Assembly (NCBI GenBank): GCA_015489175.1
Contig: WGAI01000040.1
Coordinates: forward strand, 1 to 41,558
DNA length: 41,558 nucleotides
DNA from: Caldifarciminota bacterium
GTDB lineage: Bacteria > Hydrothermota > Hydrothermia > B15-G9
Direction: 5' to 3'
Positions 6,591 to 41,558 of this stretch are shown here, in pieces. Made by a program: the position numbers and the translations under genes. Numbering within the stretch: the first letter of the stretch is position 1; every line of letters starts with the position of its first letter. The notes beneath the pieces were generated by a model that made no database searches, was not told the DNA's origin, and saw only the letters and a program-made list of their open reading frames with translations.

Positions 6591-6646
6591 CAGGCCTCCT
6601 TGTAAAAATGTCAAATTTAACATAAGGAGACAAAAAATAATAAAAA

Positions 6647-6720
6647 CGCGCCCGGAGGGAGTCGAACCCCCAACCTACGGATTCGTAGTCCGCCGCTCTA
6701 TCCAATTGAGCTACGGGCGC
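6647..6720 (-). tRNA. tRNA-Arg (anticodon ACG)
   Basis: A full cloverleaf folds on the minus strand: a 7-bp acceptor stem (GCGCCCG/CGGGCGC), a D arm, an anticodon arm with loop CTACGAA (anticodon ACG), a 5-bp T stem with TTCGACT loop, and discriminator G. No CCA is encoded. The A34 is the expected TadA substrate. It follows tRNA-Asn by 44 bp, probably in the same transcript. Confidence 0.95.
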
Positions 6721-6764
6721 AATGCGATTCATGACCATTGGTATTTTCATCAAATTTTCAGAAG

Positions 6765-6837
6765 CTCCCCGGGGGAGACTCGAACTCCCAACCTACGGGT
6801 TAACAGCCCGCCGCTCTGCCGATTGAGCTACCGGGGA
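6765..6837 (-). tRNA. tRNA-Asn (anticodon GTT)
   Basis: A complete cloverleaf on the minus strand has acceptor stem TCCCCGG/CCGGGGA, anticodon loop CTGTTAA (anticodon GTT), T loop TTCGAGT and discriminator G. CCA is not encoded. A consensus promoter lies 20 bp upstream. Confidence 0.95.
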
Positions 6838-6856: not shown

Positions 6857-6885
6857 ATTATATTCGGCCGTTTTTAGCCTGTCAA
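6857..6885 (-). promoter_or_regulatory. Consensus sigma70 promoter for tRNA-Asn and tRNA-Arg
   Basis: On the minus strand a perfect TTGACA (6880-6885), a 17-bp spacer and a perfect TATAAT (6857-6862) precede tRNA-Asn. The 5' edge of the -35 box is 4 bp from an insertion-sequence end (6890-6923). Confidence 0.88.
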
Positions 6886-6889
6886 CAAT

Positions 6890-6923
6890 GCGTTATCACT
6901 CATTTAAAATGTTACCGAAATGA
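6890..6923 (+). mobile_element. Remnant of an insertion-sequence left end
   Basis: These 34 bp are identical to the left end of the decayed IS at 20556 and nearly identical (one difference) to the IS end at 41373. Homology stops abruptly at 6923, so this is either a deletion relic or a solo end. It abuts the tRNA-Asn promoter. Nothing else is seen between 6924 and the end of the next gene at 6991. Confidence 0.8.
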
Positions 6924-20518: not shown

Positions 20519-20547
20519 ATTTTAATATCAATTCAAACCCGTGTCAA
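20519..20547 (-). promoter_or_regulatory. sigma70-type promoter of tsaD
   Basis: On the minus strand TTGACA (20542-20547), a 17-bp spacer and TAAAAT (20519-20524) precede tsaD. The upstream edge of the -35 is 8 bp from the IS end at 20556. Confidence 0.8.
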
Positions 20548-20555
20548 ACACAGAA

Positions 20556-21501
20556 GCGTTATCACTCATTTAAAATGTTACCGAAATGAAACCGCTCACC
20601 AAACGATAATGTTACCAAAACGGAGGTGAAATATGCATAAAAAGCTACCTATGAGCTTCTCTGAAAGGCGCAAATACTCGCTCATAATGAAACCTCGCTA
20701 CAAAAAGACCTCTAAGTCAATGAAATGCAACAGGTCACAGATCTCCGCCGTAGATCAATCATACGACTGATGAATGCCCCCTATCTCACCACTGAGCGCA
20801 GACTTCATGAAAGAAGCCCGGTCTATGATGCAATGGTTAAGGATGCCCTCCGAATAATAGCCAAAGCTCTCGATTACCCGGCCGCAGAACGGTTAAAACC
20901 CGCGCTCCTTTCTACAGCTCGCCATCTCGCAAGCTTCGGGAAACTTAAACTTAACAAAGAAATGATGGAAAAGCTGGATAAAATCAGTTTCTCCACGCTC
21001 AGGCGCATGCTTGCTTTAATCCCGAGGGATAAACCTCGCCCAAATGCTCCTAATCGCTACAACAAAAGGATTCTCCTGATAAAAATACCGATAGAACGCA
21101 TACCATGGGATCAGCAAGAGCCCGGATATTTTGAGGCTGATCTTGTGCATCACTCTGGTTCAATGACATCTGGAGAATATATCCACTCCCTGGTTATAGT
21201 TGATGTAGCCACTGGCTGGGTGGAACTCTGTGCTGTGTTGGGCAGGGGATACGAGATCATGCAGGATGCCTTCAATCACATCCTGCTTCGCCTACCTTTC
21301 CCGATCAAGGAAATACCCCTCCGATAATGGGAGCAAATTCATCAATCATCATATACTACGGTTCTGGAAAGAAAAGCTCCCAGAAGTCCGCCTCACACGC
21401 TCTCGCCACAAGAAAGACAACAGATTTGTAGAGCAGAGAAACAGCCTCCTCATTCGTTCATACATTTTCTCAGTAGCAATTTTCATTTGACTTGATACGA
21501 A
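20556..21501 (+). mobile_element. Decayed insertion sequence with integrase-type transposase
   Basis: The left end (20556 to about 20720) is repeated at 41373-41558, and its first 34 bp at 6890. An imperfect inverted copy of the terminal GCGTTATCACTCATTT is visible near 21480-21501 on the minus strand (TCGTATCAAGTCAAAT), giving a right boundary near 21501. Boundaries are approximate: an alternative reading takes TGTCAA (20542) and TTGACA (ending 21538) as the tips. Within the left end, AATGTTACC occurs twice (20574-20582 and 20608-20616), as expected of transposase-binding sites. No clear target duplication is seen. The transposase is frameshifted and its C-terminus missing, so the element is not autonomous. 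Confidence 0.8.
20633..21490 (+). pseudogene. Transposase with integrase (DDE) core, broken by two frameshifts
   Basis: Translation starts at an ATG with GGAGGTGA upstream, giving MHKKLPMSFSERRKYS. The frame shifts near 20715, where the protein continues as QQVTDLRRRSIIRLMNAPYL. It shifts back near 21320, where SDNGSKFINHH resumes in the first frame. The integrase-core acidic residues are traceable: Asp in FEADLVHH, Asp in SDNGS (other frame) and Glu in VEQRN. Only about 16 residues follow the catalytic Glu before a stop, whereas such transposases normally run on for about 100 more, so the 3' part is probably deleted. The family is the IS481/ISNCY-like integrase group; I cannot name the exact IS. 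Confidence 0.85.
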
Positions 21502-41201: not shown

Positions 41202-41245
41202 ATCGTTTCCTCCTGATTAACCTAAAATTAAAAGATGCGAAAAAG

Positions 41246-41319
41246 CAGGCCTGGAGGGACTTGAACCCCCAACCCTCGGATTTGGAATCCGATGCTCTAG
41301 CCAATTGAGCTACAGGCCT
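41246..41319 (-). tRNA. tRNA-Trp (anticodon CCA)
   Basis: A complete cloverleaf on the minus strand has acceptor stem AGGCCTG/CAGGCCT, anticodon loop TTCCAAA (anticodon CCA), T stem GGGGG/CCCTC with TTCAAGT loop and discriminator G. No CCA is encoded. It precedes rpmG by 44 bp, the common tRNA-Trp-rpmG-secE-nusG arrangement. Confidence 0.95.
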
Positions 41320-41339: not shown

Positions 41340-41368
41340 ATTTTAAGTGCCTCTCCCGAAACTGTCAA
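41340..41368 (-). promoter_or_regulatory. sigma70-type promoter of tRNA-Trp and the nusG cluster
   Basis: On the minus strand TTGACA (41363-41368), a 17-bp spacer and TAAAAT (41340-41345) precede tRNA-Trp. The IS end at 41373 is 4 bp from the -35 box. Confidence 0.85.
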
Positions 41369-41372
41369 CAAC

Positions 41373-41558
41373 GCGTTATCCCTCATTTAAAATGTTACCG
41401 AAATGAGACCGCTCACCAAATGATAATGTTACCAAAACGGGGGCAAAGTATGCATAAAAAGCTACCTATGAGCTTCTCTGAAAGGCGCAAATATTTGCTA
41501 CTGATGAAACCTCGCTATAAAAAGCCTCTAAGAAAGAAAATCATATAATCCTCGATGA
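41373..41558 (+). mobile_element. Left end of a second IS copy, cut by the window edge
   Basis: The sequence matches the left end of the element at 20556 closely, including the terminal GCGTTATC, both AATGTTACC repeats, the ribosome site region and the transposase start. It begins 4 bp upstream of the tRNA-Trp promoter -35. Confidence 0.85.
41450..41558 (+). pseudogene. N-terminus of the IS transposase, frameshifted
   Basis: The ATG at 41450 encodes MHKKLPMSFSERRKYLLLMKPRYKK, then runs into a stop at 41546 after a single-base frameshift near 41524. The shifted frame continues as SKKENHIILDE, the expected family sequence. The rest lies beyond the window. Confidence 0.7.

Follow-up and report, generated by a model that had tools for sequence, protein, structure and literature searches.

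The window analysed here, the whole 41,558-nt stretch of contig WGAI01000040.1 of a Caldifarciminota bacterium, carries an A+T-rich block upstream of the -35 box of a tRNA-Asn/tRNA-Arg promoter. This locus raises the question of whether the block is the end of an insertion sequence (IS) that was kept as a domesticated upstream element, as the original prediction proposed, or whether it marks the place where such an element inserts. Since relatives in many phyla land about five bases upstream of -35, the block is the mark of an insertion directed to a promoter and not of a retired element with a new function: very probably, an ISNCY-type DDE insertion sequence inserts with fixed orientation beside sigma70 promoters, with a 5-bp target site duplication (TSD) filling the gap to the -35 box. 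The features of the window are collected in Table 1.

Table 1. Features of the window that bear on the IS copies and their neighbouring promoters.
Feature	Position	Strand	Remarks
33-bp IS left-end remnant (reported block)	6891..6923	+	terminus 5'-CG at 6891; identical to 20557-20589
5-nt gap between IS terminus and -35 box	6886..6890		where relatives have the 5-bp target duplication
-35 box TTGACA, tRNA-Asn promoter	6880..6885	-	same in IS-free sister locus L220
-10 box TATAAT, tRNA-Asn promoter	6857..6862	-	17-nt spacer
tRNA-Asn (GTT)	6764..6837	-	
tRNA-Arg (ACG)	6646..6721	-	
Decayed IS copy, both ends present, rve-type transposase gene (ORF 20725-21327) broken	20557..21499	+	
-35 box TTGACA, 9 nt from left terminus of the 20557 copy	20542..20547	-	kept in IS-free ortholog L221; 17-nt spacer, -10 TAAAAT at 20519-20524
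Third IS copy, left part, cut by contig end	41374..41558	+	
-35 box TTGACA, tRNA-Trp promoter, 5 nt from IS terminus	41363..41368	-	kept in IS-free orthologs L222 and L233; 17-nt spacer, -10 TAAAAT at 41340-41345
tRNA-Trp (CCA)	41245..41319	-	

The 34-bp identity from which the original prediction started is real, 6890-6923 being the same as 20556-20589 base for base. However, comparison of the copies places the IS terminus, 5'-CG, at 6891, so that base 6890 belongs to the flank and matches by chance, and the true repeat is the 33-bp left end. The promoter of the tRNA pair was likewise found as described, with the boxes and spacer given in Table 1, and the loss of the IS interior and the abutment of the remaining end on the -35 box could both be confirmed. 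That the block is an IS end is borne out by the 33 homologous left ends read in two genomes. The statement that nothing follows the repeat holds in so far as no IS interior sequence is present, but on its cysK side the block has an old neighbourhood, and the remnant is found beside the cysK gene of a sister genome as well. A third copy of the block (41373-41406, one mismatch) lies beside the tRNA-Trp promoter, and in the window's genome the block pattern occurs 14 times at up to 3 mismatches of 34 as compared to 0 for the pattern read backwards. At the window locus no duplicate of the 5-nt gap was seen.

In the sister genome (G001) the two sides of the locus stand apart. The same left-end remnant adjoins cysK (L067) with 86% identity over 698 bp to the cysK side of the window locus, and its outer flank differs from that of the window locus. 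The tRNA-Asn promoter of the sister (L220) stands elsewhere, its sequence being 99.7% identical over 344 bp up to window position 6891, which is the first base of the IS terminus. This match ending at 6891, together with the IS-free orthologs described below, means that the -35 box is not part of the IS. Because the sister has both parts in separate places, the cysK side is seen as an old remnant, which in the lineage of the window or an ancestor came to abut the tRNA-Asn promoter, with the IS end as the junction. Since this junction is also where synteny with the sister genome is lost, the joining would most simply have occurred by recombination or a transposition-linked rearrangement; if a young copy at tRNA-Asn had crossed over with the old cysK remnant inside the end that both share, a perfect 33-bp end would be left, and then nothing.

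The 20557 copy extends over about 940 bp to its right end, and the product of its broken gene matches rve weakly (E 0.14). A search with this copy detected IS pieces at many places in the window's genome (G000) and in G001, the longest matching open frame in the two being at most 203 aa, and a protein search found transposase matches in 7 of 41 genomes searched, with better-preserved relatives in other genomes. The public relatives kept for analysis, the best 80 of 532 loci, span more than ten phyla, with WOR-3, Omnitrophota, Aminicenantes, Acidobacteria, Thermodesulfovibrio, Chloroflexi, Spirochaetia, Bacteroidetes, Actinobacteria, Bacillota and others represented, and 66 of these 80 read open over the matched stretch. 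Better-preserved relatives code for a DDE (rve/integrase-fold) transposase of about 400-430 aa, for instance 426 aa in L041, whose catalytic residues D199, D260 and E296 are kept in 43/43 aligned transposases; 42 of the 43 match rve at E 0.01 or better. The IS481 and IS3 models match the transposase below their cut-offs, and no family is excluded by absence. In the predicted structure of the L041 protein (mean pLDDT 84.5), residues 186-375 form an integrase-fold core (best Z 16.7; rmsd 2.8-2.9 for 153 residues). The model further has helical parts at the N terminus, two long paired strands and a tail at the C terminus that is helical as well. The Foldseek and VIA rows are mostly retroviral integrases, because of the catalytic core; with the L041 model, Foldseek placed ShCAST TnsB (7svw_B) at rank 11 and IstA (8b4h_A) at rank 33. 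At many left ends two tandem motifs stand about 34 bp apart, which also appear in the TIR alignments of both ends and are taken to be transposase sites. Termini of the 19 copies with exact TSD begin with 5'-CG at the left in 17 and at the right in 12 cases, and with TGT in none. The tentative assignment of this single-gene, decayed IS as ISNCY-type is based on a 33.7% match to a record named ISBj12 and on the shared end motif.

The association with promoters was analysed at the 33 own-genus left ends, 20 in the window's genome and 13 in the sister genome; L034 and L037 were left out as not being IS ends, and hits with no readable left end (such as G001:C157, C22, C56, G000:C75, C77:1-446) were not counted. 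The outside flanks were scored with a -35/-10 matrix based on textbook E. coli frequencies. At 31 of the 33 left ends, as compared to 5.20 by shuffling, the best sigma70-type promoter is directed away from the IS and 4-10 nt separate its -35 box from the terminus; the distance is exactly 5 nt at 21/33 as compared to 0.72. Measured from TTATCAC, two bases further in, it is exactly 7 at 20/33 and 6-12 at 30/33. A link between the ends of this IS and promoters thus holds in both genomes. No recognisable promoter was found beside two of the own-genus left ends (L099 and L067), and six sites (L008, L010, L012, L016, L035, L036) lie 7-10 nt, not 5, from -35. Promoters of tRNA genes (Asn, Trp, Pro, Gly, Ser, Gly, Met, Ser) account for 8/33 sites. 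In five own-genus copies with both ends that were compared by eye, no TSD was seen. One insertion (L065 on G001:C42, L011 on G000:C53) is apparently common to both species at the same promoter, and the IS family was therefore probably present in their ancestor.

For the relatives, 83 loci were considered, i.e., the best 80 of 532 and L040-L042, and all counts in this paragraph refer to that set. Fourteen loci with no locatable left end or hardly any flank were left out (L115, L127, L128, L132, L137, L142, L147, L158, L168, L173, L176, L183, L187, L188), as was L136 with its too short flank, and 68 were scored; since L042 is the contig of L112, 67 relatives are independent, and 67 were used in the -35/-10 box statistics. 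Left-end anchors were set by hand before promoter scoring, the flanks of 20 loci having been seen already. The -35 box stands at offset 13 from the CTCA anchor, which equals 5 nt from the terminus, in 44/68 relatives, and at offset 11-16 in 56/68 as compared to 5.8 by shuffling; the signal at 11-16 is missing in 12/68, six of these 12 being actinobacteria, and tRNA promoters were found at 4/68. The 50 copies with both ends allowed a comparison within the same elements: the left flank has a promoter at 3-8 nt in 43 and at exactly 5 nt in 31, while for the right end the figures are 8 and 3. Chance as the source of the promoter link was rejected based on the shuffles and this right-end control. 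Of the two-ended copies, 19/57 are bounded by a 5-bp direct repeat immediately adjoining the two termini, and allowing each boundary a shift of up to 3 the number rises to 27/57, some of them chance matches. That more than half of the two-ended copies have no clear TSD fits rearrangement or replicative events.

Recent copies of the element were found in the finished genome of an Acidipropionibacterium timonense isolate, where 12 copies are about 100% identical over the 397 bp compared, 11 of them having the top match score and one a score slightly below. The best promoter lies 4-6 nt from the terminus in 11/12 copies, and exact 5-bp TSDs flank 8 of the 11 copies with a located right end. Moreover, with the hexamer set by the 5-bp rule, TANNNT at a spacing of 16-18 is present at 11/11 distinct sites as compared to 0.021 per shuffled site. 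Two further observations concern these copies (L278-L294, G041): in five of the 12 an additional left end stands 138 bp further out than the first, and L286 and L289 have one left flank in common while their right flanks differ, a possible trace of replicative transposition.

Orthologs were searched for 14 of the 33 promoter flanks in the own, the sister and more distant genomes, and 13 sites with 19 IS-free orthologs were scored, L060 being left out as its ortholog lies at a contig end. The promoter was found at the same place in 15/19 IS-free orthologs, in 14 with identical hexamers, which covers 12 of the 13 sites; in the remaining four of the 19 (L238, L229, L239, L236) the same promoter is missing. 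The presence of the promoter at the same place in IS-free orthologs indicates that the promoter came first and the IS second. The far side of the IS was compared with about 370 to 1350 nt upstream of the promoter at IS-free sites in 10 pairs, and only scattered 12-27-nt matches were detected in nine of these; the tenth, L009/L222, is uninformative because the window's contig ends inside the IS. Between sister genomes with closely matching promoters, synteny breaks at the IS end in 9/9 pairs, window position 6891 included, the stretches being short.

Across phyla the element thus recurs in fixed position and orientation next to a promoter older than itself and with a 5-bp duplication. The left terminus, which mostly reads 5'-CG and precedes two tandem repeats, faces the promoter, with the 5-bp target duplication filling the gap to -35. 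In the mechanism that we propose, the transposase would find its target via the promoter-bound RNA polymerase holoenzyme, at the face of sigma region 4 or alpha-CTD. As judged from the sequences, targeting probably operates through promoter-bound RNA polymerase rather than through the -35 hexamer alone, because sites with a poor -35 still have a -10 at the right distance and because the two boxes are both over-represented, at the flexible spacing that is usual for promoters. Among relatives with at most 3/6 matches to -35 (from the best 80 of 532 and L040-L042), a -10 of at least 4/6 is present in 24/31 (null 0.19). The own genus gives a weaker signal, a good -10 being present with 6/13 weak -35 boxes (null 0.22) and with 19/20 strong ones. 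We lean towards the view that a widespread IS family uses the RNA polymerase holoenzyme on sigma70 promoters as a landing beacon, with the transposase docking on its upstream face and the left end being joined 5 bp upstream of -35, as a bacterial counterpart of yeast Ty.

The main competing explanation, that the transposase reads the TTGACA-like DNA of the -35 box directly with RNA polymerase uninvolved, seems rather unlikely, though it deserves consideration: the first -35 position is the most informative one in the relatives (1.23 bits; best 80 of 532 and L040-L042), the -35 box is what fixes the point of insertion, and the own-genus difference between strong and weak sites given above would be expected from it. 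Against this, a -10 at 16-18 nt is present in 24 of the 31 relatives despite a poor -35, and in all 11 distinct A. timonense sites, several of which do not have TTG. Outward -35 boxes that form hybrid promoters are known for other IS ends, and as an outward -35 accompanies most copies at a constant spacing, the IS end might itself bring the -35 and have captured a -10 at each landing site; this is hardly credible here, given that IS-free orthologs have the promoter at the same place in 15/19 cases, that the TSDs sit between the IS and the promoter and that the hexamers vary among near-identical copies. Wherever the flanks were read far enough, the sites of the own genus precede genes, which would also result from random insertion with only harmless intergenic copies persisting, a reading that the single-base precision of the offset, the single orientation and the near-absence of promoters at right ends render very improbable.

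Targeted insertion also bears on the proposed domestication, according to which selection keeps the A+T-rich end as an UP element since it raises tRNA transcription. UP elements are A+T-rich stretches at about -40 to -60 that enhance transcription, and the present block is A+T-rich and stands upstream of the -35 box. In its favour, the block at 6891-6923 represents the commonest form and is unchanged, whereas 3 of 24 bases are mismatched in the cysK remnant of the sister; this could be due to selection, but equally to recombination with a younger copy. Furthermore, the search with the 20557 copy gave 32 hits that extend to the left end of the query and 7 that extend to its right end, but this imbalance may only reflect a better query match of the left end. 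The comparison of the upstream sequence with a sister genome, which had been suggested as a check, spoke against domestication: -35, spacer and -10 of the sister tRNA-Asn promoter are the same and the block is missing. Moreover, longer copies and, in another species, young full copies hold the same fixed position, so that the position needs no selection and the promoter link arises from where the IS inserts. Domestication thus appears improbable, while the block may have a side effect of the UP-element kind on tRNA transcription.

To our knowledge, few target-specific insertion sequences exist. The nearest described case hunts dif sites: the ISAjo2 group of the IS1202 family inserts 5 bp from the XerC binding site at dif/pdif, in one orientation and with a 5-bp TSD (Harmer, Pong and Hall, 2023; PMC10132070). 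IS1202 family members are marked by a DDE transposase of about 394-507 aa with Q as the seventh residue after the catalytic E, 5'-TGT/ACA-3' ends and a second internal site per end, and a target was reported neither for the long-TSD nor for the no-TSD group (PMC10132070). The present element resembles the ISAjo2 group in its single DDE transposase of similar size (426 aa in L041), its TIRs with a second internal site, its 5-bp TSD (19/57 two-ended copies from the set based on the best 80 of 532; 8/11 in A. timonense), its single orientation and a distance of 5 bp between the insertion and a sequence bound by a host protein. In contrast, its target is a sigma70 promoter, its left termini are mostly 5'-CG and not 5'-TGT, and the residue at E+7 is V in 37, I in 5 and A in 1 of 43 transposases; membership in the IS1202 family is ruled out by the lack of Q in 43/43 and by the termini not being TGT.

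Another known relative is ISBj12 (ISNCY) of rhizobial and related plasmids, with 33.7% identity to the L041 transposase and with a CGCATTGCCTC-like end and a tandem second site in common. Six plasmid relatives (30-34% identity; ISBj12/ISNCY where so annotated) share the end motif. Unlike the present IS, the ISBj12-like elements have a CDS of 1512-1587 nt in five annotated loci and long extra inverted flanks at both ends in 5/6 plasmid loci. In L272, L273, L275, L276 and L277, from rhizobial and other plasmids, the inner ends are common and each side bears a long GCGCGACAATCAGGATGAGA-like extra inverted flank, as though these elements had acquired new termini or a different target. A best promoter at 3-8 nt from the inner or outer end was found in 0/6 of the ISBj12-like plasmid relatives, so that promoter targeting does not extend to every member of the wider group. 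Tn7-type TnsB and IS21 IstA would have the integrase-fold core in common with the L041 transposase, as judged from the predicted model; in comparison with those systems the present IS appears to code for one protein. Yeast Ty3 and Ty1 integrate upstream of tRNA genes at a set distance from transcription start signals. The present IS is similar in that an integrase-fold enzyme lands at a set distance, and different in that Ty elements are eukaryotic retrotransposons associated with RNA polymerase III. No published IS with promoter targeting was found in a search that covered mostly titles and the beginnings of abstracts, with subscription journals mostly outside it.

If a transposon with a single protein locates promoters to the base, it would allow a direct look at how transposases can use the transcription machinery as a target. 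A promoter-targeting IS would moreover explain the recurring IS ends beside tRNA and other promoters, and would provide a natural promoter map in uncultured phyla. For the interpretation of upstream regions it follows that a conserved block upstream of a -35 box is not necessarily a regulatory element.

A second repeat family (L240-L264, 17 of 25 in G002), with a conserved CACCACAAAGTAAACGGC... end, was also noticed beside some promoters, e.g., at L242, L252, L258 and L262. With the best promoter at 6-11 nt in 9/25 and some poor scores, the signal was too weak and this family was rejected as promoter-targeting. By eye, the G002 tRNA promoter with the second repeat (L262) resembles that of G001 with the IS (L063).
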